NCBI RefSeq assembly: GCF_009707865.1
Contig: NZ_WMBA01000004.1
Span: 124,001 to 188,000, forward strand
Direction: 5' to 3'
Length of the DNA: 64,000 nt
From: Amycolatopsis pithecellobii
Lineage (GTDB): Bacteria; Actinomycetota; Actinomycetes; Mycobacteriales; Pseudonocardiaceae
This document shows, in pieces, positions 14,612 through 27,094 of this stretch (position 1 is its first letter; every line of letters begins with the position of its first letter). A program made the translations under genes and the position numbers. The notes beneath the pieces are model-generated. The model ran no database searches, had not been told where the DNA came from, and saw nothing but the letters and a program-made list of their open reading frames with translations.

Positions 14612-15289
14612 CTAATGCGGCCGCGCCAATTCCACGAGGAGCCGTGCCAATTCCGCGGGGCGGCTGAGGAAGGGGGAGTGGTCGGCACCGATCATCTCGT
14701 GCGCCTCGATGCCGAGTCGCTCCCGCGCGGCCCGGCGCGCCCATACCGGATTGACCGCGTGGTCCTCGGTCGGGACGACATATGCCGACTCGGTGTCCGG
14801 CCAGACCCTCAGTGGTGTCGTTTCGCGGAAAGGCATTTCCGCTTGGGGCCGGATCTGCGTCAGTGCCCACGCCGCGTCGGCGTCGCCGGCTGCGTTGTAC
14901 AGGCCGTCGCGGTAAGCGGATGGGCCGGCCTGGGGTGAGAAGAGCAGCATTTCGGGCTCGGCCGCCAACTGTTCGAGCAGGGTCCTGCCGGGTATCGGAA
15001 GCGCGCCCGACAGGAAGATCATCTTGCGGACGGGTCGTTCCGTTGCCACCAACGGAATCGTGAGCCCGCCCAGTGAGTGGCCGACCAGGACAAGGTCGCC
15101 GTCGAGGTCGGCGAGCGCCTCGAGGACCACCTCGGCATAGCGCCCGGCACCGGCCGTCTCGTCCTCGCTGGGCAGATCCATGGCCACCGCGCTGTGCCCG
15201 AGCGTATCGAGTGCGCCGATCACGCGCTGCCAGCACCACGCTCCATGAGAACCGCCATGCACCAGAACGAAAATCGTCTCACGCGCCAT
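14612..15289 (-). CDS. Alpha/beta hydrolase, tandem copy B
   Basis: Hydrolase of 225 residues. Seen: FVLVHGGSHGAWCWQRV near the start, nucleophile elbow GHSLGG, and late His in GADHSPFLSRP. It is a close paralogue of the next gene. ATG 15289 overlaps the stop of copy A by 11 bp (ATGGCGCGTGA) and has AAGGAG just upstream inside copy A, so translation is coupled. The family (salicylate-esterase/HNL-like group) hydrolyses small esters. Its 3' end carries a 163-bp block nearly identical to copy A. Confidence 0.9.
   Translation of the reverse strand: MARETIFVLVHGGSHGAWCWQRVIGALDTLGHSAVAMDLPSEDETAGAGRYAEVVLEALADLDGDLVLVGHSLGGLTIPLVATERPVRKMIFLSGALPIPGRTLLEQLAAEPEMLLFSPQAGPSAYRDGLYNAAGDADAAWALTQIRPQAEMPFRETTPLRVWPDTESAYVVPTEDHAVNPVWARRAARERLGIEAHEMIGADHSPFLSRPAELARLLVELARPH
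14625..14787. repeat. 163-bp near-identical block, copy 1 (partner at 15310-15472)
   Basis: The 3' end of hydrolase copy B repeats 685 bp away in hydrolase copy A with about four visible differences, whereas the rest of the two genes is clearly more divergent. This suggests recent duplication with gene conversion. Confidence 0.85.
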
Positions 15290-15971
15290 GCGCCTGCTCC
15301 TTCGATACCGCCAATTCCACGAGGAGCCGTGCCAATTCCGCGGGGCGGCTGAGGAAGGGGGAGTGGTCGGCACCGATCATTTCGTGCGCCTCGATGCCGA
15401 GTCGCTCCCGCGCGGCCCGGCGCGCCCATACCGAATTGACCGCACGGTCCTCGGTCGGGACGATGAACGCCGCGTCGACGTCCGGCCAGGCCTTCAGCGG
15501 AGTCTCCTCGTGGTACGGGGTCTGTGCTTGCGGCCGGATCTGCGCCAGCGCCCACGCGGCATCCGCATCGGCCGCTGTCCCATACAGCCGGCGACGGAAC
15601 GCGGATGGCCCGTCAGGATTGGGAAAGACCATCTCTGGTTCCGTTTCCTGTTGCTGTATCAGGCTTTTGCCGGGCATGGGCAGCACGGCCGAGAGGAATA
15701 TCAGCGTGCGGACCGGACGTTCCGCCGCGACCAGCGGAATGGTCAGCCCGCCCAGAGAGTGCCCGACGAGAACAACGTTGCCATCGACGTCGGCGAGTGC
15801 GTCGAGGACCACCTCGGCGTAGCGCTGGGCACCGGCCGAGTCGTCGTCGCAGGGCAGATCCATGGCCACCCCGCGGTGCCCGAGGACGTCGAGCGCGCCG
15901 ATCACACGCTGCCAGCACCACGCTCCGTGACACCCACCGTGCACCAGACCGAATACCGTTTCGAGTTCCAT
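15279..15971 (-). CDS. Alpha/beta hydrolase, tandem copy A
   Basis: Hydrolase of 230 residues and paralogue of the gene at 14612. Seen: FGLVHGGCHGAWCWQRVIG, GHSLGG nucleophile elbow, GADHSPFLSRP His motif. ATG 15971 follows AGGAGGT. It lies 16 bp after the ABC permease gene on the same strand, so it is probably co-transcribed with the importer, implying the imported compound or a derivative is an ester or amide substrate. Confidence 0.9.
   Translation of the reverse strand: MELETVFGLVHGGCHGAWCWQRVIGALDVLGHRGVAMDLPCDDDSAGAQRYAEVVLDALADVDGNVVLVGHSLGGLTIPLVAAERPVRTLIFLSAVLPMPGKSLIQQQETEPEMVFPNPDGPSAFRRRLYGTAADADAAWALAQIRPQAQTPYHEETPLKAWPDVDAAFIVPTEDRAVNSVWARRAARERLGIEAHEMIGADHSPFLSRPAELARLLVELAVSKEQAHGA
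15310..15472. repeat. 163-bp near-identical block, copy 2 (partner at 14625-14787)
   Basis: Second copy of the block described at 14625. It encodes the C-terminal about 54 residues of copy A, including RERLGIEAHEMIGADHSPF, identical in both proteins. Confidence 0.85.
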
Positions 15972-15987
15972 TTCCACCTCCTCGTGA

Positions 15988-16821
15988 CTAATGGTGCGCG
16001 GGCCGCCAGCGCAGAAATCGTCGTTCCGCGAGGGAGGCGATCTGATCGAGTACGCCCGCGATGATGACGGTGGCGATGATGGCCGCGAACACGTTGGGCA
16101 TCTGGAAGAACCCTGACCCGGACACGATGACATAACCCAGCCCGACCTGGCCGAGGAACATCTCGCTGACGATGGCGGCGGACAGGCCGTAGGCCAGCGA
16201 GAGGCGCGCCGCGGCGATGATCCAGGGAACCGTCGCGGGAAGGACCACCCAGTAGATCGTCTGCCACCGGGACGCGCCACACAGCTTGGCCAGGGTGAGC
16301 TGGTTCCGCTCGGTGGCCTGCGCGCCGGTGATGACGTTCGTGAGGGCGATGAAGAACACCAGTGACACCACCAAGGCGATGGCCGAGTTGGTGCCGGTCC
16401 CGAACCACAGGACGAACAACGGGGCGAGGGCGATGCGGGGCATCGAGTTGATCACCGTGACGAGCGGGTTCAGCACTTTCGTCGCGGTCTGCGACAGTCC
16501 GATGACGAGGCCGGAAATGGTGCCCGCGGCCATGCCGATACAGAAGCCGATCATGGCCGCTTTGAGCGTCTCGAGCGAGGCGGCTCGCAAGCTGCCGTCG
16601 TGGATGCCGTTGACGAACGCCTGCACGGTCGCGCCCGGGCTGGGGACGAAGAGGGGGTTCACCAGCTTCGTCGTGCAGATCAGCTGCCACGCGCCGATGG
16701 CTGCGGCGACCAGGATGATCCGCGTGGCGATCACGAAGGCCCGGCGATATCCCTGGCGCGGAACCGGCGGAGCATCGTCGAGCTGGGCTGGGTTGGTCGT
16801 GACGACCTCGGTGCCGGTCAC
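15988..16821 (-). CDS. ABC importer permease (SsuC/TauC-like)
   Basis: Membrane subunit of 277 residues of the nitrate/sulfonate/taurine importer family. Seen: a cytoplasmic N-terminus, then IILVAAAIGAWQLICTTKLV, FVPSPGATVQAF, several more helices, and the EAA-type loop around LTLAKLCGASRWQTIYWVVL. GTG 16821 abuts the ATPase stop and has GGAGG upstream. It works with the ATPase and binding proteins encoded upstream on the minus strand. Confidence 0.9.
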   Translation of the reverse strand: MTGTEVVTTNPAQLDDAPPVPRQGYRRAFVIATRIILVAAAIGAWQLICTTKLVNPLFVPSPGATVQAFVNGIHDGSLRAASLETLKAAMIGFCIGMAAGTISGLVIGLSQTATKVLNPLVTVINSMPRIALAPLFVLWFGTGTNSAIALVVSLVFFIALTNVITGAQATERNQLTLAKLCGASRWQTIYWVVLPATVPWIIAAARLSLAYGLSAAIVSEMFLGQVGLGYVIVSGSGFFQMPNVFAAIIATVIIAGVLDQIASLAERRFLRWRPAHH

Positions 16822-17652
16822 TTATTCGCCTCCGCGTAGCTCGTGCCAGATTTCCTTCATATACGACTGGAACCGGGTCGATTCGAAGATGAGCTGCTCG
16901 GCCGACCGCGGTCGTGGCAGTTCGATCCGGCGAGTCGCCCGCACGGTCCCGGGGCTGGGCGACATGGACACCACGACATCGGCGAGCGCGACGGCTTCCG
17001 CGACGTCGTGGGTGATGAGGATGACGGTCGGCTTGCGGCGTTCCCAGATGGACAGAAACAGGTCCTGAATGACCACGCGTGTCTGGGCGTCCAGCGCGCC
17101 GAAGGGTTCGTCCATCAAGATGATGCGTGAGCCGGTCGCGAACGTCCTGGCGATCGCCACCCGTTGCCGCATGCCTTGGGAGAGCTGGTGCGGGTGGTGG
17201 TCCAGGACCTTCTCCAGGCCGACCGCCGAGATCATTTCCCGGGCGCGATCCAGCCGGGACTTGCGTGATTCGCCGGCGAGCTGGAGTGGGAACTCGACGT
17301 TGCCCAGTACGGTCCGCCACGGCAGCAGGGAGTCCTGCGCGGGCATGTAGCCGATGTCGCTGCTCACGGCGCGGACCGGTTTTCCGTCGACGGATACGCG
17401 GCCCTCGGTGGGGCGCAGCAGTCCGGAGACGAGATTCAGGATGGTGGTCTTACCACAGCCGCTGGGCCCGACGACCGCACAGAACTCTCCTTGTTCGACG
17501 GTGAACGAGACATCCCGGATCGCCGGGCGCCGGGTCTTGCCCGCCAGGAAGGAGTGGCCGACCGCCTCCAGCTCGATCGTTCCCCGCGGTGCTGTCGCTG
17601 TGGTCCGCGTACCGGGCACCGGCTTGGCCAGCCCGGCAGCTGATCCCTTCAT
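16822..17652 (-). CDS. ABC importer ATPase (SsuB/TauB-like)
   Basis: ATP-binding subunit of 276 residues. Seen: Walker A GPSGCGKTT, Q-loop YMPAQDSLLPWRTV, signature LSQGMRQRVAIAR, Walker B IILMDEPFGALD, switch LITHDVAEA. ATG 17652 follows AAAGGA by about 10 nt. It lies 14 bp after the nearer binding-protein gene. Confidence 0.93.
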   Translation of the reverse strand: MKGSAAGLAKPVPGTRTTATAPRGTIELEAVGHSFLAGKTRRPAIRDVSFTVEQGEFCAVVGPSGCGKTTILNLVSGLLRPTEGRVSVDGKPVRAVSSDIGYMPAQDSLLPWRTVLGNVEFPLQLAGESRKSRLDRAREMISAVGLEKVLDHHPHQLSQGMRQRVAIARTFATGSRIILMDEPFGALDAQTRVVIQDLFLSIWERRKPTVILITHDVAEAVALADVVVSMSPSPGTVRATRRIELPRPRSAEQLIFESTRFQSYMKEIWHELRGGE

Positions 17653-17666
17653 ATCGATCAAATCCT

Positions 17667-18686
17667 TTACTTCAGTACCAACTCGGACTGGTGTGCGGTG
17701 ACGTTCTTGCCGTAGGCGAGGTTGTATGCCTTGACCGCGTCGTCGAACTGGCTTGCGGTGATGTTCTCGGCCCCGGCGAACGACGGCGCCAGGCCCCTGA
17801 TGAGGCCCGTGAGGTCGGGTTCGCCGACGCCGGGGTAGTCCGGCGCGACGGCTTTGGCGATGGCGGGCGCGTTGGCGGGGTCGGACAAAAAGGCGTTCGT
17901 CGCGGTGATCGCGGACCGGAAGCGGTTGATCACCTCGGGGTTGGCGTTGGCGAACTGTTTCGACGCGAGGTAGACCCAGGCATTCGCATTCAGCAGGAAT
18001 TCGGGACCCTGACCATTCTGGACGTCGACGATCGTGTCGACGTCGCCGGCGAGTTGTTGCTGGACGGGCTGGACCGAGGTGACACAGTCGATCCGCTTTG
18101 CCTTGATCGCGGCGATTTCGGCGGGGACGCTGCCCACCGTCACCCACGACACCCTGGCCGGGTCAACACCCGCGGAGACCAGCAGCGCACGGGTATAGAT
18201 GTCGGGCGCCCCGCCCGGTGCGGTAGTGCCGATCGACTTGCCTGCCAGCGAACTGATGCCGGCCGGGTAACCCGGGACCGCACCGACGCCCTTGCGGCAC
18301 TGCAAGGCGAGCGGTTCCCTGGTCTCGCCTCCGGAGGCGATCACGAGGTCACCGCCGGAACTGTTCGCCGCGATCGTGACCGGGATCGTGCTGATGGCGA
18401 TATCCAGCTGCCCGGAGCTCAGCAATTGTGTCGCCGAGTTGCCGTTGTTGGTGGTGAGCGGTTGTACGTCGAGGCCTGCCTTCTCGAAATATCGCATTTC
18501 GCGGGCCAGGAACAGCGGCAGTGTCACCAGCGATCCGCCGATGAGATTCAGCTTGATCGGCAACGGGGCGGGGCCACCGGTGGCCTCATCGCGCGGGGAG
18601 GTCGAACTTCCGCATGCCGTGGCCGCCAGGGCACAAGCCGCGCTCACGGCGAGGCAGAAAAGGCGTTTTCGCAGAGAGGGTCGCAT
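17667..18686 (-). CDS. ABC importer substrate-binding lipoprotein, tandem copy 2
   Basis: NMT1/SsuA-like solute-binding protein of 339 residues. Seen: signal peptide RKRLFCLAVSAACALAATAC with lipobox Cys, then INLIGGSLVTLPLFLAREM-type start (here LNLIGGS), and the C-terminus NLAYGKNVTAHQSELVLK. It is a paralogue of the gene at 18689 with only 2 bp between them. Two binding proteins for one permease/ATPase set suggests broadened ligand range. Confidence 0.91.
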   Translation of the reverse strand: MRPSLRKRLFCLAVSAACALAATACGSSTSPRDEATGGPAPLPIKLNLIGGSLVTLPLFLAREMRYFEKAGLDVQPLTTNNGNSATQLLSSGQLDIAISTIPVTIAANSSGGDLVIASGGETREPLALQCRKGVGAVPGYPAGISSLAGKSIGTTAPGGAPDIYTRALLVSAGVDPARVSWVTVGSVPAEIAAIKAKRIDCVTSVQPVQQQLAGDVDTIVDVQNGQGPEFLLNANAWVYLASKQFANANPEVINRFRSAITATNAFLSDPANAPAIAKAVAPDYPGVGEPDLTGLIRGLAPSFAGAENITASQFDDAVKAYNLAYGKNVTAHQSELVLK

Positions 18687-18688
18687 AG

Positions 18689-19699
18689 CTATTTCAGCAC
18701 CAATTCGGATTGGTTTGCGGTGATGTTCTTGCCGTAGGCCAGGTTGTATGCCTTGACCGAATCCTCGAACGCGCTCGCCGGGATCGTCTCGCCGTCGGCG
18801 TAGGTCGCCTGCACGGCCCTGACCAGGGTCACGAGCTCGTCATGGCTGACCCCGGGATAGTCCGAGGCGACCCCGGTGGCGACCGCCGGGGCGTTGGCAG
18901 GGTCGGCCAGGAATGCGTTGGCTGCCTTGATCGCCTGCCGGAAGCGGGTGATGACTTCGGGATTGGCCGTCGCGAACTTGTTCGTCGTGGCCGCCACGCC
19001 GTATGCGGCGTTCGTCAGAATGGCGGGTCCTTCGCCCTTCTGCACATCGACAATGGTCTGTACCTCGTCGGCCAGCTGATGCTGGATCGGCTGGAACGAC
19101 ATGACACAGTCGACGCGTTTCGCTTTGATCGCGGCAATGAAATTGGGCACCCCGCCCAGCGGGACCAGCGAGACCTTGGCCGGGTCCACGCCCGCCGAAC
19201 TCAGAATGATGCGCCCGAAGGTGTCGCTCGCCGCGCCGACGGCCGTGATGCCGATCGACTTGCCTGCCAGCGAAGTCACGCCGGCCGGATAACCAGGTGT
19301 CGCGCCGATGTCCTTCCGGCACTGCAGCGCGACCGGAGCATGCCGCTCGAGCCCGGACACTATCGCGATGTCGGCGCCGGCGGCGCGCGCGTTGATCGCA
19401 CTCGGGATGTCGATGGAGGCGACATCCAGCTGTTCGGAGGTCAGCAGCTGGAGCGCCGAGGTGCCGAGGTTGGTCGTGACCGACTGGGCCTGCAACCCGG
19501 CTTTGGCGAAATACCCCATGTCGCGAGCCACGAAGAGCCCCAGTGTCGTCAGCGATCCGGCCGTCAGGTTCATCCGGAAGGTCAAGTTGGGTGCTCCGTT
19601 GGTGGGAGCCGGGGCCGGGCCGGCGCACGCGGTGGCCGCCGCAAGGCAGACCGCGGTCGTGGCGATGCCGACGACACGTTTGCGGATGGACGAAAACAT
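18689..19699 (-). CDS. ABC importer substrate-binding lipoprotein, tandem copy 1
   Basis: NMT1/SsuA-like binding protein of 336 residues. Seen: signal with TTAVCLAAATAC lipobox region, TAGSLTTLGLFVARDMGYF at the mature N-terminus, IKAKRVDCVMSFQPIQHQ ligand-lobe segment, and C-terminus NLAYGKNITANQSELVLK, which is almost that of its neighbour. GGAG lies 7 nt before the start. First gene of the minus-strand importer-hydrolase operon; the promoter region holds RpiR-type sites. Confidence 0.91.
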   Translation of the reverse strand: MFSSIRKRVVGIATTAVCLAAATACAGPAPAPTNGAPNLTFRMNLTAGSLTTLGLFVARDMGYFAKAGLQAQSVTTNLGTSALQLLTSEQLDVASIDIPSAINARAAGADIAIVSGLERHAPVALQCRKDIGATPGYPAGVTSLAGKSIGITAVGAASDTFGRIILSSAGVDPAKVSLVPLGGVPNFIAAIKAKRVDCVMSFQPIQHQLADEVQTIVDVQKGEGPAILTNAAYGVAATTNKFATANPEVITRFRQAIKAANAFLADPANAPAVATGVASDYPGVSHDELVTLVRAVQATYADGETIPASAFEDSVKAYNLAYGKNITANQSELVLK

Positions 19700-19746
19700 C
19701 GTTGTTCTCCTTGTTGTCCGTGCACCGGCCGCGATTCAGGTCCGGT

Positions 19747-19790
19747 TGTAGCATCGACTACGCAAACTTGCCAGAACTGTAGTATATACG
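19747..19790. promoter_or_regulatory. RpiR-type operator pair upstream of the importer operon
   Basis: A 16-bp palindrome TGTAGC-ATCG-ACTACG (19747-19762) and a half-site TGTAGT at 19778-19783, start-to-start 31 bp. On the minus strand the half-site overlaps a TATACT hexamer that could be the -10 box. The same pair with the same spacing is found before the MFS gene and in the RpiR/oxidoreductase gap. Confidence 0.65.
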
Positions 19791-19833
19791 CCAGCGCGTG
19801 CCAAGGGGTGCGCCGGTGTCACCGGCGCCCGGC

Positions 19834-21153
19834 TTACGCCAACGGCTGCCGGGCCGTCTCCTTGAAGGTCAGGACCGCGACGAAACCGAACACGGCGGCC
19901 GCGACCAGATACCAGGCCGGCGCGGAACCATCGTGCGTCCACGTCACGAGAAACGCGGCGATGAACGGGGCGAATCCACCGAAGATCGCCGTCGTCGAAT
20001 GGTAAGGAATCGAAAGCGCGGTGTACCGAACCTGCGCCGGGAACAATTCCGCCAGAGCTGCCGTGGCGGGGCCGACGGCCATGCCGAGCAGCACGACGCA
20101 CACGAGCAGCAGAAGCATGACACCCCAAGCCGGGCTGTTCTGGAGCAGCAGAAAAACCGGGTACGACACCACGGCGAAGAGTGCACACGCGGTGAGCATC
20201 GGCGGCTTGCGGCCGATGCGATCGGACAACGCGCCGAAGATCGGAGTCGCCACCGCCAAGGCCGCCGACTCGATCGCCATCGTCAGGTTCGCGAGTGCCG
20301 GACTGAAACCGGCCCAGGTGACCAGCCACGTCGCGAGGTAGGTCAACAGGATGTAGTACGCGACCCCCATCAATGCCACGAGGCCAACCGCTTTCAGCAT
20401 CGGGCGGCGCGCGGTCCTGAACGCTTCTCGGAGCGGCGCGGTGGCCACCTGTTCATTCGCTTTCAGCGTCTCGAATGCACTGGTCTCGGGTGCCGACCGG
20501 CGAAGGATCCACGCCGGGATCACGATCAGGGCGCCGGCCAGGAACGGCAGCCGCCATCCCCACGACTCGACGGCCGAGGCGGGCATCACCGCGTTGATCA
20601 AGGCCGCCACGCTCGCGGACAAGGTGAGCGACAGCGCCACCGAGCTCAATTGCCAGCTGGTGGCGAACCCTCGGCGGCCCGGCGGGGACGACTCGAGCAT
20701 GTAGGTGGCGGATCCGGCCCATTCACCACCGCTGGCGAATCCCTGAAGCAAACGCAACACGGTCAGCAGGACCGGGGCGGCGAGACCGATCTGGTGATAG
20801 GTCGGGGCGCAGCCGATCAGAAAGGTGGCGACCCCCATGCCGAGTACCGAATATGTCAGAGCCTTCCGGCGGCCGCCCCGGTCACCGACATGCCCGAACA
20901 CGATCGCGCCGAGTGGACGGGCAAGGAAACCGACACCGAAACTCGCAAATGTCAGGAGCAGCGCCGTGCTCTGACCGCCCGCGAAGAACTGCCGGGCGAT
21001 GACGAGCGCGAAGTACCCGTATACGCCGAAGTCGTACCATTCCAACAGGTTTCCCACGGCGACCGTCGACACAAGCCGCCCCAGTGACAACCGGGTTCGT
21101 GGCTCGGCAGGGGATACTTCACGTTCCACACTGGTCAAGTCTTCCGCGGACAT
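19834..21153 (-). CDS. MFS transporter, metabolite:H+ symporter (MHS) type
   Basis: Twelve-helix carrier of 439 residues. Seen: VAVGNLLEWYDFGVYGYFA at helix 1, RPLGAIVFGHVGDRGGRRKAL (loop 2-3 signature), LQGFASGGEWAGS and a central cytoplasmic loop, then GALSDRIGRKPPML. These features are those of the ShiA/ProP/KgtP family, importing organic acids or zwitterions. GGAG is 7 nt before the start. Monocistronic on the minus strand, with RpiR-type sites in its promoter. Confidence 0.93.
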   Translation of the reverse strand: MSAEDLTSVEREVSPAEPRTRLSLGRLVSTVAVGNLLEWYDFGVYGYFALVIARQFFAGGQSTALLLTFASFGVGFLARPLGAIVFGHVGDRGGRRKALTYSVLGMGVATFLIGCAPTYHQIGLAAPVLLTVLRLLQGFASGGEWAGSATYMLESSPPGRRGFATSWQLSSVALSLTLSASVAALINAVMPASAVESWGWRLPFLAGALIVIPAWILRRSAPETSAFETLKANEQVATAPLREAFRTARRPMLKAVGLVALMGVAYYILLTYLATWLVTWAGFSPALANLTMAIESAALAVATPIFGALSDRIGRKPPMLTACALFAVVSYPVFLLLQNSPAWGVMLLLLVCVVLLGMAVGPATAALAELFPAQVRYTALSIPYHSTTAIFGGFAPFIAAFLVTWTHDGSAPAWYLVAAAVFGFVAVLTFKETARQPLA

Positions 21154-21200
21154 CGGCGGACTCCTCCCGGCTGTGCCACGTATACGACCGTCGGCCGCCG

Positions 21201-21237
21201 TGTAGCAAAAACTTCCTGGATGTCGGCCGACTGTAGT
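21201..21237. promoter_or_regulatory. RpiR-type operator pair upstream of the MFS gene
   Basis: TGTAGC-AAAA-ACTTCC (21201-21216, degenerate right arm) and half-site TGTAGT (21232-21237), start-to-start 31 bp, as at 19747 and 22171. It lies between the MFS start and the 3' end of the RpiR gene. Confidence 0.6.
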
Positions 21238-21271
21238 AAACGCGTCAGGGAGGAGGCAAGGGGTGGAGGAA

Positions 21272-22144
21272 TTACCCTTCCGCGTCGAGCTTGCCGCCGA
21301 CGATGTCGGCGCGCAGCGCGTTGAGCCGCTCGTAGGACCGCACGGCGTCGGTCTGACGCTCCGCCGAGACGGACAGGTTCAGGGCGCGGGCGACGATCAT
21401 GCCCATGACGACGCCGTCGCTGGTGCCGGTGGTGGTGGGCGGCGTGGCCAGCACGACGTCCACACGCTCCCGCAGTGCCTCGCCGAGTGTCTCGCTGACC
21501 AGAATCGTGGTGGCCCCGACCTTCGCCGCATACTCGAGCACTACGTCGATCTCGCGGAACTGGCGCAATGTCGCGAACACGACGAGCACATCGGACTCGT
21601 TCATGTCGAGCAGGCTGTCGGCGAGCGAGAAGCCCGTCGCTTTGATACTCGTGCTCGGCTTTCCGGCGCGGTGAAGGCAGATGCTGAGATAATCGGCGGG
21701 ACATCCGCTGGGGCCGATGCCGTAGGTGATCACGCGAGCGGCACTCGTCATGGCGTTGATGGCGCGAGTCCAGCTGTCCGTGTCGAGATCCGCTTCGAAC
21801 TGCCGCAGCAGCAATGCGGTGTCCAGGAGAACCTTCTTGGCTCCGAAATCCGAGCCACTGATCTGTTCCAGCTGATCATCCAGCACCTTCGACGGGTCGC
21901 GATGGCGACCCGAGATGGCCAGAGCCGACCGGCGCAACTCCCGGAAACTCGGATACCCCAGCTTCTTTGTCGTCCGCACCACCGTCGCATCGCTCGTCGA
22001 CGTCAAACTCCCCAGCTCCGCCGTCGAGGACACAGCGACCAATGCCGGATTCGCCGCCATGAACTCCGCAACCACCGCCTCGCCCGGCGTCAACGACACC
22101 ACGAGCGCCGCAACCCGCTCATGCAACGGAGCATCCGAATTCAA
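21272..22144 (-). CDS. RpiR family transcriptional regulator
   Basis: Regulator of 290 residues. The N-terminal HTH_6 domain (about 1-75) includes TPGEAVVAEFMAANPALVA and TSDATVVRTTKKLGYPSF; the C-terminal SIS domain has ITYGIGPSGCPADYLS and VVFATLRQF. These proteins sense phosphorylated or acidic metabolites. TTG 22144 is the start, preceded by GGGAGG. It sits in the middle of the uptake/degradation block and is divergent from the oxidoreductase gene. Confidence 0.92.
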   Translation of the reverse strand: MNSDAPLHERVAALVVSLTPGEAVVAEFMAANPALVAVSSTAELGSLTSTSDATVVRTTKKLGYPSFRELRRSALAISGRHRDPSKVLDDQLEQISGSDFGAKKVLLDTALLLRQFEADLDTDSWTRAINAMTSAARVITYGIGPSGCPADYLSICLHRAGKPSTSIKATGFSLADSLLDMNESDVLVVFATLRQFREIDVVLEYAAKVGATTILVSETLGEALRERVDVVLATPPTTTGTSDGVVMGMIVARALNLSVSAERQTDAVRSYERLNALRADIVGGKLDAEG

Positions 22145-22159
22145 CTTGAGGCCTCCCTC

Positions 22160-22217
22160 TTGTCATGTGTTGTTGTGAATACTACAGTTCGACCGGAGAG
22201 ATGAAGTGTTCGCTTCA
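22160..22217. promoter_or_regulatory. RpiR-type operator pair and promoter for the oxidoreductase-hyu operon
   Basis: Palindrome TGTTGT-GAAT-ACTACA (22171-22186) and a second one, TGAAGT-GTTC-GCTTCA (22202-22217), start-to-start 31 bp. A plus-strand promoter TTGTCA (22160-22165), 17 nt, TACAGT (22183-22188) overlaps the first site. It would control RpiR itself and the divergent operon. Confidence 0.65.
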
Positions 22218-22240
22218 ATAAAGCTGGTCGGAGGTCACGC

Positions 22241-23371
22241 GTGGAGGTCGCGGATTTCATCGTCGTGGGGGGTGGCGTGTATGGCGCCTCTCTTGCGTAC
22301 GAGCTGGTCATCAGGGGGTCGTCGGTCACGGTACTCGAGGCCGGCCGGCTCGCATCGCGAGCATCGGGCGGACCGGGAAAGCGCGGGGTGCGCGCCAACG
22401 GGCGCAATTCGCGGGAACTGGTGCTGGCGCGGGAAGCCCTGGCGATCTGGCCGGCCCTGGCGGCCGAACTCGGTGGCGACACCGGGTTCGAGCGGCTCGG
22501 TGGCCTGATGCTGGTGGGTTCGATGGCCGAGTATGGCGAGATCGGGCTGGCCCGCGCGGAGGCGCACCAGCGGCTTCAGTCCGGGCACGGGATCGGTTCC
22601 CGGCTGGTCGGCGGTTCGGAACTGCGGGCACTGGAGCCCGGTGTCGGCGAATCCGAGATCGCCGCCTTGTTCAACCCGCACGAGGGTATTGCCGATCAGC
22701 AACTGACGGCCCGTGCGTATGCGGCCGCGGCGGGCAAGCTCGGCGCATCGGTCCGGGAGGCGACCGAAGTCGACAGATTCGGCGCCCAGCCGCGTCCCTG
22801 GGTGCGGTTGGGTGATGGCTCGGAACTCGTGGCCCGCAGGGCGATCGTGCTCGCCACGAATTTCGGCACGAACGCGTTGCTCGAGCGATCGGGGCGGCCC
22901 CACCTTCCTTTGTGGACAATGGCGCCCCAGGTGCTGATGTTCCAGGCCAAGGACGATTACCAGCCACGGCATCTGGCCGGGCACCTCCAGAAGATTCTGT
23001 CCGTGAAGCCACTGGCCGAGGGCATCACGATGATCTCCGGCGGCATGCGTGGCAGGTGGGACGACGACACGGCGCGAGGCCGGCCCGTCGAGAGCGACAT
23101 CCAGGAAAGCCTCGACGTCGCCGCATCGGTCTTCCCGCCGCTCCGCGACGGCGTCCTGGTGGCCGCGGACGCCAGTTCGCCGGAGACCTATACGCCCGAT
23201 GGCTTGCCCTACCTCGATTTCCTCGACGAGGACCACCGGGTCTTCGTGGCGACCGGCTGGCACGGCCACGGCTTCGCCATCGCGCCGGCGGTGGCGAAAC
23301 ACGTAGCGGAGTGGCTCACCACCGGCCGGCGGGGCGATTTGCTTGCCCCATTCAGGATCCGTCGCCGGTAG
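22241..23371 (+). CDS. FAD-dependent oxidoreductase (DAO family)
   Basis: Flavoenzyme of 376 residues of the D-amino-acid-oxidase/sarcosine-oxidase/glycine-oxidase group, which oxidises secondary or primary amines. Seen: FIVVGGGVYGASLAYEL (FAD dinucleotide motif), E in TVLEAGRLASRASG, RGVRANGRNSREL, and the C-terminal GWHGHGFAIAPAVAK motif. GTG 22241 follows GGAGG by 7 nt. First gene of an operon with hyuB- and hyuA-type genes, so an N-substituted amino acid from lactam or hydantoin opening is a reasonable substrate. Confidence 0.91.
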   Translation: MEVADFIVVGGGVYGASLAYELVIRGSSVTVLEAGRLASRASGGPGKRGVRANGRNSRELVLAREALAIWPALAAELGGDTGFERLGGLMLVGSMAEYGEIGLARAEAHQRLQSGHGIGSRLVGGSELRALEPGVGESEIAALFNPHEGIADQQLTARAYAAAAGKLGASVREATEVDRFGAQPRPWVRLGDGSELVARRAIVLATNFGTNALLERSGRPHLPLWTMAPQVLMFQAKDDYQPRHLAGHLQKILSVKPLAEGITMISGGMRGRWDDDTARGRPVESDIQESLDVAASVFPPLRDGVLVAADASSPETYTPDGLPYLDFLDEDHRVFVATGWHGHGFAIAPAVAKHVAEWLTTGRRGDLLAPFRIRRR

Positions 23372-23438: not shown

Positions 23439-25058
23439 ATGACACAGTCCGAACTGGATTCGGTGACCGTCGACATCATCGGTCACCACCTGGTCGCCAT
23501 CTCCGAGGAGATGGGGGTGGCCATGATGAGAGCCGCCTACTCTCCCAACATCAAAGAGCGGCGTGACTGCACAACAGCGCTGCTGGACACTTCCGGTCAT
23601 TCCATCGCACAGGCCGAACACATCCCGATCCACATGGGCTCGATGATCGGGTTCATCCCGGGGATCGTCGCGCAGTACGACGGGGACATTCATCCCGGCG
23701 ATATCTTCATCTCCAACGACCCATACCTCGGGGGCAGCACACACCTGCCGGACGTCTCGGTGGTGGCGCCGTTGCACGTCGCGGGGGAGTTGGTGGGATT
23801 CGCCGCGGCGGTCGCCCACCATGCCGAGTTCGGCGGTTCGCTGGGCGTCGCGCCGGACATCTACTCCGAAGGCCTGCGGCTGCCCATTCTCAAGATCGTC
23901 GATCGCGGTGTCCTCGACGAAGCGCTGATCCGGCTGATCCAGCTCAACACTCGCGTACCCACCGAACGTCTCGGTGATCTCCGGAGCCAGTTCGCCGCCG
24001 TGTCGCTGGGCGTGCGCCGCTACGACGCGCTGCTGGCACGTTATGGCCCTGGCGCCGTGGTCGAGGCCACCCACGTGTGGCTCGACAAAGCCGAGGCCCA
24101 GGCCCGCGCGGCGTTACAGGAAATGCCCAAGGGGCGCTTCGAATTCGCCGACCGGATGGACTCCGACGGAGCAGGCACGGTCGACATCCCGATTCGCGTG
24201 GCGATCGAGATCGACGACGAGCGCATCGCGGTCGATTTCACCGGCACCGCCGGTCAGGTGGCCGGCCAGATCAACACCGCACGAGCCGCGGTGGAGGCGT
24301 CCGTTTACTACACGATCAAGACCATCCTGGACCCCACTCTTCCGGCGAATGCGGGGTTCTACCGGATTGTCGAGATCACCATTCCACGCGGATCCCTGCT
24401 GAATTCCGTCGCGCCCGCACCGGTCTTCATGCGATCCGATTCCTGCCAGCGCGCGGTCGACGCGATATTGGGAGCGTTCAGCCAGGCGTTGCCGGACCGT
24501 ATTCCGGCCGCGTCCAACGGTTCGATCACCGCCATGGCCTTCAACGGCTACGACGCGACCCGGCAACGACCGTTCGCCTACACCGAGGTCATCGCCGGGG
24601 GCGCGGGCGCACTGCCCACCGCGGACGGCCAGGACGCCGTGCAGACGCACATCACGAACACGGCGAACACCCCCGTCGAAGCGGTGGAGCAGAGCTATCC
24701 GTTGCGTGTCACGAAATACGCGCTCCGCGACGGATCGGGTGGGGCGGGCCGGTTTCGTGGCGGTATCGGCATCATCCGTGAGCTGGAGACCTTGAACGAC
24801 GACATCCGCCTGCTGGTCAAAGGCGATCGGGTGAACAACGGTCCATGGGGGTTGCAAGGCGGGGGGAGCGGCCTGCCCTTGGCGTTCGTGCTCGACCCCG
24901 AATCGGACCACCCGCGAACCTTCACCCGGTCCGACAACGGAACCCCCCTGCGCCCGGGAACCATCGTCCGGGCGATGACCGCCGGCGGCGGCGGCTTCGG
25001 CAGCCCGCAGACGGAGGACGAAACCGGCACCGACAAGGAGAAAGGCGACGCGAAGTGA
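23439..25058 (+). CDS. Hydantoinase B / oxoprolinase family subunit
   Basis: Protein of 539 residues of the HyuB family (N-methylhydantoinase/5-oxoprolinase beta type). Seen: the typical N-terminus DIIGHHLVAISEEMGVAMMRAAYSPNIKER-like region, DPYLGGSTHLPDV, and the C-terminal GGSGLPLAF / TAGGGGFGSP motifs. ATG 23439 follows GAAGGA. The stop overlaps the hyuA-type start by 4 bp. The subunit pair opens cyclic amides with ATP. Confidence 0.93.
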   Translation: MTQSELDSVTVDIIGHHLVAISEEMGVAMMRAAYSPNIKERRDCTTALLDTSGHSIAQAEHIPIHMGSMIGFIPGIVAQYDGDIHPGDIFISNDPYLGGSTHLPDVSVVAPLHVAGELVGFAAAVAHHAEFGGSLGVAPDIYSEGLRLPILKIVDRGVLDEALIRLIQLNTRVPTERLGDLRSQFAAVSLGVRRYDALLARYGPGAVVEATHVWLDKAEAQARAALQEMPKGRFEFADRMDSDGAGTVDIPIRVAIEIDDERIAVDFTGTAGQVAGQINTARAAVEASVYYTIKTILDPTLPANAGFYRIVEITIPRGSLLNSVAPAPVFMRSDSCQRAVDAILGAFSQALPDRIPAASNGSITAMAFNGYDATRQRPFAYTEVIAGGAGALPTADGQDAVQTHITNTANTPVEAVEQSYPLRVTKYALRDGSGGAGRFRGGIGIIRELETLNDDIRLLVKGDRVNNGPWGLQGGGSGLPLAFVLDPESDHPRTFTRSDNGTPLRPGTIVRAMTAGGGGFGSPQTEDETGTDKEKGDAK

Positions 25059-27094
25059 GGATCGGCATCGATATCGGCGGCACCTTCACCGACGTGTTCG
25101 CCGTGTCCGGCGGCCGGACGTTCATCGCCAAGGTACCCAGCTCGTATCCGGACCCGTCCGCGGTGATCGAGTCCGCTGTGCGAGCCGTACTGGACAAGGC
25201 CGGGAAGGCCGGTGCCGACGTGAGCGCCCTCATCCACGGCACCACGGTGGCGACGAATGCGATGATCGAGCGGCAACTCGGTGTGGTCGGGCTGATCACG
25301 ACCGCCGGCTTCCGCGACGTCCTCGCGATCGGACGGCAGACCCGGAACACGCTGTACCGGCTGGACTTCACACCGCGCTGGGTACCGGTCGAGAGAGAGC
25401 GGCGCCTCGAAGTCACCGAGCGCACCGACTACACCGGGCAGGTCTTGACGGCACCCGATCGCGGTGAAGTCGTCGCCGCGGCGGAGACGCTGGTGGCCCG
25501 AGGTGCGACCGCCGTCTGCGTTGCCTTTCTGCACTCGTATGCCAACGACACCAACGAACGCGAGGCCGCGGCCTGGATCAGGCGAGCGTTCCCCGACCTC
25601 GACGTGTGGACGTCGGCGTCGGCGGTGCCGGAGTTCCGCGAGTACGAACGGTTCGCGACCGCCGTCATGGATGCGGCACTCGGCGAGACGATGACGACCT
25701 ACCTCGGCAGGTTCACCGACCAGGCACGGTCGGCCGGAGTGGTCGGTGAACCGTACGTGATGGAATCCTCCGGGGGCGTCGTCCGGATGTCGGAGGCGGC
25801 CGTCCACCCCACGCGGACACTGCTTTCGGGTCCCGCGGGCGGGGTGCTCGGCGCCATCAACCTTGCCAAGCGGCACGACCGGGCCGACCTGCTGACGTTC
25901 GACATGGGTGGCACCAGCGCCGACATCGGGGTGATCCGGTCCGGCGCACCGGATGTCGTGAACATCCGCCACTTCCAGGATCTGCCGGTACTCGGCACGA
26001 CCGTCGCGCTGGAGGCCATCGGTGCGGGCGGCGGCAGCATCGCGTGGATCGATCAGGGCGGGCGCCTGCAGGTCGGCCCGCGCAGCGCCGGATCGGTACC
26101 CGGGCCTGCCGCCTACAACAAGGGCGGGACCGAAGCCACGGTCACCGACGCGCATGTCGTACTCGGGACGCTGCCCGCCGCGGCCCGGCTCGGCAACTCC
26201 TTCGGCGTCGACCGGGACCTGGCGATCGCCGCCGTCGAACGGTCGGTGGGCGCCCCGCTCGACCTCGACGTGATCAGCGCGGCCCATGCCATCCTCGACA
26301 TGGTCAACACCAACATGGCGCTCGCCGCCCGGCGGGCAACGGTGGCGCGCGGCATCGACCCGCGGGCCCTGACCCTGGTCGCCTACGGTGGCGCTGGGCC
26401 GCTGCATGCCACCACACTGGCGGGGGAGCTGGGCATCGAGGAGGTCATCGTCCCGGCGCATCCCGGCATGCTGAGTGCGATGGGCCTGCTCGTGTCGGAC
26501 CTGCGCAAGGAGTTCATGCGGTCCTTCGTGGTCGACGTGAGCCCGGCGACCGTCAACCAGCTTTCCGACACCGCGAAGGTCCTGATGGCCGAGGCCTTGG
26601 CATGGCGGGACGAGCAGGGCGAGACCGGAGACTGGAGCGCGGGTATCGAGGCGGAACTGCGGTATCGCGGCCAAGAGCACACGCTGCGGGTGGCTCTTCC
26701 GGATCTCCCGTGGGAGCACACGACGGCGGATCTCATCGCCGATCGCTTCGGCGAGTCGCACGAACAGCTCAACGGGTACCGGGTGACGGGCGAGGACATC
26801 CAGATGATCAGCCTCCGCGTCACGTGCGCCATCGATGTCGGCGGCTCCGGTCTTCGACTCCAGTACGCCTCGGGTTCCGGTGTGGACCTGGCTTCGCCGG
26901 ACACGCCCGTGTGGTGGACGCGGCACGAAGCCGTCCCGACGCCGGTGTTCTCGGCGCCCGACCTTCACCACGAAGACTGGATCAAGGGCCCCGCCATCCT
27001 GGTGCAGGAGGACTCCACCTGCGCCGTCGCCCCCGGCTACCGCTTCCGCACCCTGCCCGAGACGGGCGGCATCGCAATCCAGCGAATCCCGTAA
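25055..27094 (+). CDS. Hydantoinase A / oxoprolinase family subunit
   Basis: ATP-using subunit of 679 residues. Seen: RIGIDIGGTFTDVF at the N-terminus, IHGTTVATNAMIER, SGPAGGVLGA and DMGGTSADIGV (actin-like ATPase fold), and YGGAGPLHA in the second half. GTG 25055 is inside the hyuB stop (GTGA). Together with HyuB it forms the ATP-dependent hydantoinase/oxoprolinase-type enzyme; acetone- and acetophenone-carboxylases are more distant members, so the substrate is open. Confidence 0.93.
   Translation: MRIGIDIGGTFTDVFAVSGGRTFIAKVPSSYPDPSAVIESAVRAVLDKAGKAGADVSALIHGTTVATNAMIERQLGVVGLITTAGFRDVLAIGRQTRNTLYRLDFTPRWVPVERERRLEVTERTDYTGQVLTAPDRGEVVAAAETLVARGATAVCVAFLHSYANDTNEREAAAWIRRAFPDLDVWTSASAVPEFREYERFATAVMDAALGETMTTYLGRFTDQARSAGVVGEPYVMESSGGVVRMSEAAVHPTRTLLSGPAGGVLGAINLAKRHDRADLLTFDMGGTSADIGVIRSGAPDVVNIRHFQDLPVLGTTVALEAIGAGGGSIAWIDQGGRLQVGPRSAGSVPGPAAYNKGGTEATVTDAHVVLGTLPAAARLGNSFGVDRDLAIAAVERSVGAPLDLDVISAAHAILDMVNTNMALAARRATVARGIDPRALTLVAYGGAGPLHATTLAGELGIEEVIVPAHPGMLSAMGLLVSDLRKEFMRSFVVDVSPATVNQLSDTAKVLMAEALAWRDEQGETGDWSAGIEAELRYRGQEHTLRVALPDLPWEHTTADLIADRFGESHEQLNGYRVTGEDIQMISLRVTCAIDVGGSGLRLQYASGSGVDLASPDTPVWWTRHEAVPTPVFSAPDLHHEDWIKGPAILVQEDSTCAVAPGYRFRTLPETGGIAIQRIP

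Follow-up and report, generated by a model that had tools for sequence, protein, structure and literature searches.

Operators of RpiR-type regulators

Few operators of RpiR-type regulators have been defined; PMC12713135 names three regulators with molecular studies of their repression. The same source reports that RpiR proteins are tetrameric and, citing Jaeger and Mayer 2008, describes a proposal in which a tetramer of Escherichia coli MurR (EcMurR), whose reported ligand is a phosphorylated sugar, bridges two sites 17 base pairs (bp) apart that span 47 bp in total and lie over the -35 and -10 elements. In E. coli MG1655, the best repeat in a 200-bp stretch holding the murR-murQ intergenic region was found here at an offset of 32 bp, with 12 of 18 bases alike. 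The present analysis concerns a 64,000-nucleotide stretch of the Amycolatopsis pithecellobii genome (hereafter the window), in which three pairs of 16-bp palindrome-like sites, termed A, B and C, lie beside and near a gene encoding an RpiR-type protein. It is considered quite probable that these pairs are the operators of this adjacent protein, an autoregulated repressor whose SIS-linked tetramer would bridge the two sites of a pair and whose pathway ligand would release it from the DNA.

Other members of the family use different arrangements. The repeat of Pseudomonas RccR is TGTAGT/ACTACA, occurring as a 15-bp site with a linker of 3 or as a 28-bp site, and the sites at aceE lie 68 bp apart (PMC5489143). 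The structure of RccR with 2-keto-3-deoxy-6-phosphogluconate (KDPG) is reported to be tetrameric, with the phosphate of the ligand bound by Ser139, Ser183, Ser185 and Ser188 (PMC10810197); entry 8ju9 is given as P. aeruginosa RccR in PMC12713135. HexR, according to PMC5489143, is bound as a dimer to the consensus TTGT-N7-8-ACAA. Streptococcus pneumoniae NanR is described as an activator acting from an 18-bp near-palindrome about 55 bp upstream of the -35 element, with no adjacent second full site in the account given by PMC12713135, and GlaR is reported to be another RpiR protein that activates.

Three site pairs with a common geometry

Pair A lies before an importer operon and comprises A1 (19778..19793, minus strand, TGTAGTATATACGCCA), which overlaps the predicted promoter, and A2 (19747..19762, minus strand, TGTAGCATCGACTACG), which lies past the expected transcription start and is the sole match without mismatch to the single-site pattern in the genome. 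Pair B precedes a gene of the major facilitator superfamily (MFS) and is likewise composed of a promoter-overlapping site, B1 (21232..21247, minus strand, TGTAGTAAACGCGTCA), and a second site, B2 (21201..21216, minus strand, TGTAGCAAAAACTTCC). Pair C, consisting of C1 (22171..22186, plus strand, TGTTGTGAATACTACA) and C2 (22202..22217, plus strand, TGAAGTGTTCGCTTCA), is located between rpiR and an oxidoreductase gene dependent on flavin adenine dinucleotide (FAD). All six sequences reported by a first-pass annotation of this DNA are present at these positions, and the offset of 31 bp that it gave for each pair is exact, so that every pair is built as 16 + 15 + 16 = 47 bp. When A and B are read on the plus strand and C on the minus strand, the three share the form TGWAGC-N4-ACTWCN, 15 bp, TGTAGT-N4-RCNNCA.

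Three other readings of these promoter regions were considered and set aside. One would assign the two sites of a pair to two divergent promoters, one operator each; pairs A and B, however, are flanked by genes that run in one direction and have no divergent gene, which makes their second site more than an operator for such a promoter. Recent duplication of a promoter cassette was also rejected, because 19-20 of 24 half-site columns agree between pairs as against 25-28 of 83 other columns. A separate motif in the inter-site spacer was dropped, as the three window spacers share just two bases, those after ACTACA, which are explained by the -10 element.

Confinement of the pair to one locus

The genome comprises 7.9 megabases (Mb; 7,899,446 bases) in 144 contigs. 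When all of these bases were searched with the full pair pattern, allowing up to three mismatches, only A, B and C were matched (three forward and three reverse readings), while the backward control gave 2 + 1 matches. The pair matches without mismatch arise by construction, as the pattern was written from A, B and C, and the informative result is that nothing else matches; the pair is thus not common elsewhere in the genome, and the presence of further pairs, which the first-pass annotation had named as an outcome against its proposal, did not occur. No site of at least 9/12 was found in the 350 bp before the helix-turn-helix (HTH) stretch of the three other genes of this genome whose products score above the HTH_6 cut-off.

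A test free of this circularity used a palindromic 16-column matrix built from 42 sites in 20 upstream regions of relatives, from which the window's own locus and its nearest relative were excluded. With this matrix, the six window sites occupy ranks 1-6 in the 64 kilobases (kb) of the window, in the order C1, A1, A2, C2, B1 and B2, and the three 31-bp pairs occupy ranks 1-3 over all offsets from 17 to 120 (38.4, 35.6 and 29.9 bits). The next pair, which scores 26.4 bits, shares one of the six sites, and the highest-scoring 31-bp pair in 60 random Markov windows reached 11.7 bits.

These results bear on the possibility that the sites are products of chance or composition, being AT-rich promoter patches, in a window of 68% guanine plus cytosine, that happen to resemble TGTAGT. 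Such an origin would account for the loose single matches, which are unenriched in the window and frequent in the genome. The confinement of the pair, its conservation with rpiR homologues, its presence in class-level relatives and the scores with the relatives' matrix are, in contrast, all far above chance; the explanation is refuted at the level of sequence statistics and is extremely improbable.

Conservation with rpiR homologues

Homologues of the regulator, with its own genome counted, were found in 53 of 390 genomes of the family (E <=1e-30), 7 of 397 of the order (1e-35), 7 of 394 of the class (1e-33) and 2 of 19 of the genus (1e-20). The gene is therefore sparse within its own genus, a pattern as would be expected of one that was gained or is often lost. 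A scan of genome contigs with the window RpiR protein returned no relative, and among 72,556 plasmid records searched at the protein level 562 gave a match, all below 60% identity, with the best among the matches listed near 33%. One genome of the genus (G003) carries two rpiR homologues, L019 and L020, about 2 kb apart on opposite strands, with no upstream site of at least 9/12.

The upstream regions of 72 of the 82 places found in the family search were examined together with two loci that the order search added to the set, making 74, the window's own included; the other 10 places were excluded from the spacing count. At a site threshold of 9/12, these regions carry 1.18 sites each, as against 0.025 in shuffled sequence; 36 carry at least two sites, and a pair at 28-32 bp is present in 33 of these. 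Similar upstream regions were then collapsed into 48 clusters, each represented by the member with most sites, of which 23 have at least two. Neighbouring sites lie 28-32 bp apart in 20 of these 23, and the same holds for 15 of the 17 clusters that have just two, whereas random placement of two sites would give 8%. Adjacent spacings are distributed as 31 bp (10), 30 (5), 29 (3), 28 (2), 32 (1) and 51 (2), with one each of 20, 25, 38, 41, 47, 53 and 55. The clusters with rare spacings are L040 (G285; 51 bp), L093 (G266; 20 and 55 bp) and L116 (G266; 53 bp), the values of 51-55 bp being near five helical turns. Three regions have three sites, L043 (41 + 31 bp), L102 (47 + 30 bp) and L106 (51 + 29 bp), and in L104 (G374) four sites form two 31-bp pairs before a single gene, itself an rpiR homologue.

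The spacing extends beyond the family. Among six class-level homologues, it is 31 bp in three (43% protein identity), 30 bp in one and 28 bp in one, with no such pair in the remaining one; the three with exactly 31 bp (L118-L120) belong to the same class but lie outside the order. A tree of 34 proteins unites five of the six rows with 30 bp in one fully supported branch and places L053 elsewhere, and the rows with 31 bp are spread over the other branches; 14 of the 31 inner branches of this tree are weak and several long branches meet. The spacing looks like a property of clades that drifts by one or two bases. The constant 31 bp of the first-pass annotation accordingly holds in the window and its close clade and widens to 28-32 bp in relatives, with three of the 23 multi-site clusters lacking a pair in that range. 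Within 20-kb loci of relatives, pairs of at least 18/24 at offsets of 29-32 bp were found in 8 of 20, every one beside rpiR.

It is against this distribution that a simpler use of real RpiR operators has to be judged, namely that an independent dimer binds each site and the second site raises occupancy, with no bridging and no strict need for three helical turns. The range of 28-32 bp across clades fits such an arrangement, as do the few clusters that use 51-55 bp or three or four sites, and dimers have been proposed for the two adjacent sites of Vibrio vulnificus NanR (PMC12713135). Independent dimers would nevertheless leave unexplained the excess of 28-32-bp pairs over random placement, which persists in clusters with exactly two sites even though those with three or four have more chances of a fit, and the recurrence of exactly 31 bp at three otherwise unlike promoters in the window. 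RpiR crystal structures are, furthermore, reported to be tetrameric (PMC12713135). Independent binding is consequently regarded as unlikely, and bridging by a tetramer is preferred.

Register with predicted promoters

A consensus scan of positions 19600-22400 returned two promoters, where 0.3 would be expected, and these lie before the importer and before the oxidoreductase gene. The first, predicted for the importer operon, is TTGGCA-N17-TACAGT (19776..19804, minus strand), and the second, predicted for the oxidoreductase-hyuB-hyuA operon, is TTGTCA-N17-TACAGT (22160..22188, plus strand); each is the best promoter in register with its pair. A weak promoter, TTGCCT-N18-TACAGT (21230..21259, minus strand; 8/12 matches), is predicted for the MFS gene and does not appear in the stricter scan. 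The -10 hexamer TACAGT keeps one register with the upstream operator at A, B and C alike, beginning each time at its TACA, such that at A1 the ACTACA end followed by GT contains the predicted -10. C1 overlaps both the predicted -10 of the oxidoreductase operon and a possible -10 of rpiR (TAGTAT, 22179..22184, minus strand), the -35 of which is poor, giving 6/12 matches in all. The pairs thus overlap core promoters that are predicted from consensus. Identical hexamers at identical spacing, as read by eye, precede the oxidoreductase gene of the nearest relative (L024).

Other relatives differ in this respect. In 5 of 28 clusters, a set that considered offsets of 28-32 bp only and was not used for the spacing claim, TTGACC/T-N18-TAC--T is directed away from rpiR, with its -35 between the sites and its -10 on the outer margin of the other operator; a GTCAAT shared by the relatives' spacers is read as this opposite-strand -35, and a purine run in the same spacers is a possible Shine-Dalgarno sequence of rpiR. 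As the position of the promoter differs between the window type and those relatives, it appears to move between clades while the spacing stays at about 31 bp.

The operator may also meet the reading frame. In 19 of 29 rows checked, the fifth position of the right-hand operator holds a possible rpiR start (ATG or GTG) that is in frame and meets no stop, and in five further rows an ATG starts at the last base of that operator. In the former (L025-L033, L035-L039, L041, L044, L045, L078 and L104), the operator would encode the first residues of the protein, often M/V-x-T-T/S. The left operators and the three window pairs are free of overlap with rpiR coding sequence, and in 5 of the 20 paired clusters, that of the window included, the right operator lies wholly upstream of every possible start; the spacing in those five is 29-32 bp.

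The spacing could, on these grounds, be a by-product of promoter layout, with one site tied to a -10 element and the other to the rpiR start codon or to a second promoter. The overlap of the -10 hexamer with operator ends, the start codons at position 5 and the -35 elements between sites would all be in keeping with this. A and B, however, keep 31 bp although they have no divergent gene and lie outside annotated starts, and the -10 occupies different positions in the window type and in relatives while the spacing changes little. An origin in promoter layout is for these reasons held to be very unlikely, and a spacing set by the bound protein remains the favoured reading.

The regulator and its effector loop

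The protein proposed to bind the site pairs is encoded at 21272..22144 on the minus strand from a TTG start and combines an HTH_6 domain with a SIS domain. Both score above the Pfam cut-offs (HTH_6, 1.5e-08, 35 bits against 28.3; SIS, 4.6e-06, 26.9 bits against 25), which places it within the RpiR family. Its match to the NCBIfam HexR model reaches 32.7 bits, far under the cut-off of 296, and its best matches among solved structures are 8ju9 and 8k3b. The first-pass annotation had likened the sites to those of HexR, a comparison that fails on the sites as well, for the TGTAGT/ACTACA repeat is that of RccR as given in PMC5489143 and the paired geometry is that proposed for EcMurR in PMC12713135.

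The serine-rich phosphosugar loop of the SIS domain (SxSG or SxTG type) is absent from the window protein, which reads FATLRQFRE where RccR has ISQSGRSKD and EcMurR has ISYSGSK. Two paralogues in the same genome keep the loop (VSHTGAT and ISHTGAT), and a third (L127, C75), which reads TFRRYS, also lacks it. Of 34 aligned rows, 22 have AP-x-R-x-F-x-E at the loop, while the window protein and its nearest relative have AT-x-R-x-F-R-E. The missing loop bears on the effector and not on family membership, for which serine residues at this position are usual and not defining. Because the loop is replaced and three of the four positions aligned with the phosphate-binding serines of RccR are not serine, a non-phosphorylated inducer appears likely.

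Gene context

The rpiR gene is divergent to that of the FAD-dependent oxidoreductase of the DAO family (22241..23371, plus strand; Pfam DAO 3.1e-50), for which the best NCBIfam model, glycine oxidase ThiO, scores under its cut-off. This is followed on the same strand by genes for a hydantoinase B/oxoprolinase-type subunit (hyuB, 23439..25058; Pfam 3.3e-171) and a hydantoinase A/oxoprolinase-type subunit (hyuA, 25055..27094; Pfam Hydantoinase_A 2e-80). The best NCBIfam models for the two are caprolactamase beta and alpha, respectively, and the caprolactamase (CapAB) equivalog scores of 258.6 and 424.9 bits fall under cut-offs of 1000 each. The Hyu proteins would therefore be only relatives of CapAB within the hydantoinase/oxoprolinase superfamily and, as the caprolactamase and ThiO names all score under cut-offs, the pathway is named merely as being of ring-amide type.

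On the other side of rpiR, all on the minus strand, lie a gene for an MFS metabolite/H+ symporter (19834..21153; Pfam MFS_1 3.2e-42; best NCBIfam model TIGR00883, metabolite/H+ symporter, under cut-off) and those of an ATP-binding cassette (ABC) importer. The latter encode two NMT1-like substrate-binding proteins (18689..19699, Pfam NMT1 4.7e-22; 17667..18686, Pfam NMT1 8.7e-20), an ATPase with an ATG start taken from the sequence (16822..17652; Pfam ABC_tran 2e-33 for the tested stretch 16822-17640) and a permease (15988..16821; Pfam BPD_transp_1 6.3e-24). The importer and the MFS gene are separate units, each with its own pair. The nearest relative has its oxidoreductase and hyu genes on either side of an amino-acid-type ABC importer (SBP_bac_3), which is of another type than that of the window, with an MFS gene behind them, and no pair other than that beside rpiR lies near these genes. 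Two tandem duplications were observed on the minus strand of the window: that of the NMT1-like binding proteins (17667-19699; 59.7% identity over 313 amino acids by blastp) and one of alpha/beta hydrolases at 14612-16160 (75% identical over 219 amino acids).

A model of operator pairing and its weighing

The favoured model builds on features computed here, namely the sites, their spacing, their conservation with rpiR homologues, their confinement within the genome and their register with predicted promoters. From these we infer binding, a tetramer, repression and an inducer, as follows. One dimer would occupy each 16-bp palindrome TGTAGT-N4-ACTACA, and the two dimers of a pair, separated by 31 bp (about three turns) and facing the same side of the helix, would be joined as a tetramer through their SIS domains. 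At each of the three promoters (importer, MFS and oxidoreductase-hyu), the -10 and some of the spacer between -35 and -10 would be covered by the upstream operator and, if transcription starts about 7 bases after TACAGT, the downstream operator would lie at about +8 to +23. The bound tetramer could thereby clamp the start site and block RNA polymerase, and at the central pair it would also cover the possible rpiR promoter, resulting in autoregulation. A small molecule of the pathway, probably the ring amide or the product of its opening and not a phosphosugar, may bind the SIS pocket and free the DNA, such that import and breakdown would be induced together.

A number of observations limit this model or weigh against it. 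Single 16-mers, when three mismatches are tolerated, number 57 in the window, which is no enrichment over a shuffle mean of 48.55 (15 of 100 shuffles reach 57); those with up to two mismatches are fewer in the genome (159 + 172) than in the backward control (941 + 971), and the half-site pair TGTAGY...TGTAGT, taken bare with an offset of 30-32 bp, occurs at three places in the genome, being A, B and one other, as against 4 + 1 in the control. A loose single site or a bare pair of half-sites means little. Among the 48 clusters, 21 have no site of at least 9/12 and four have one only, and the three multi-site clusters outside the range have spacings of 51, of 20 and 55, and of 53 bp. In 15 of the 20 paired clusters, the right-hand operator may reach into the beginning of the rpiR reading frame, and part of its conservation could therefore be coding. 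The outer half-site is decayed in the nearest relative (G120, 75% identical), whose locus, when the threshold is relaxed, yields this decayed pair together with a second match, of 28 bp, at 940. Pairs at several promoters are absent from the 20-kb loci of 20 relatives at the 18/24 threshold, and multi-promoter use of the pair is, to date, peculiar to this window. Lastly, repression is deduced from the position of the sites alone, and some RpiR proteins activate. Notwithstanding these points, the proposal of paired RpiR operators about three turns apart appears well supported by the confinement of the pairs, their occurrence with rpiR homologues and their overlap with predicted promoters.

Implications

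A broader proposal is that the three-turn pair (28-32 bp) serves as the ruler for a large branch of RpiR proteins in which the sensing of a phosphosugar has been abandoned in favour of a ring amide or an amino-acid-like molecule, with assembly of the tetramer on pairs, and not affinity for the single site, setting membership of the regulon. This is put forward tentatively, its chance of being correct being judged somewhat below even. If true, reading the ruler would allow regulons to be read directly from genome sequence. The rule itself, which extends across genera to class-level relatives, makes a weak single-site motif a specific genome-wide predictor, picking out three places in 7.9 Mb. 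It also fits a tetramer as the working unit of RpiR proteins, which is possibly more important than thought, as raised in the NanR preprint (PMC12713135). The subgroup set apart by the replaced phosphate loop should have an inducer of a new class, and the neighbouring genes encode relatives of ATP-dependent ring-amide hydrolases that are of interest for the breakdown of lactams and hydantoins.

Comparison with known systems

The paired geometry is not new in principle, since the layout is that proposed for EcMurR and the half-site is that reported for RccR. As far as the literature was searched, the new elements are the conservation of the spacing across a large clade, its use at several promoters of one regulon and the changed effector loop beside cyclic-amide genes; among the best-ranked matches of these searches, no paper on 31-bp RpiR pairs of such a kind was found.

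S. pneumoniae NanR resembles the proposed regulator as a protein that passes between dimer and tetramer, one tetramer being able to hold two DNA molecules (PMC12713135), but it is described as an activator with no adjacent second full site, whereas repression is suggested for the window. In common with HexR, the locus combines an RpiR-family protein with a pseudo-palindromic operator and a site before the regulator's own gene; the half-sites are, however, TGTAGT/ACTACA, and no fixed pair is described for HexR in the available part of PMC5489143. The palindromic half-sites are shared with RccR, from which the window differs in its linker of 4 (giving a 16-bp site), in the pair offset of 31 bp and in three of the four aligned pocket positions, which are not serine. 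In layout the window resembles E. coli MurR, for which two adjacent sites with a total span of 47 bp are likewise proposed, the best repeat has an offset of 32 bp and the regulator gene is divergent from a catabolic operon. The window differs from this system in the sequence of its half-sites, in the loop FATLRQF in place of the serine loop ISYSGSK of MurR and in the deployment of the pair at three promoter regions, two of which are non-divergent.

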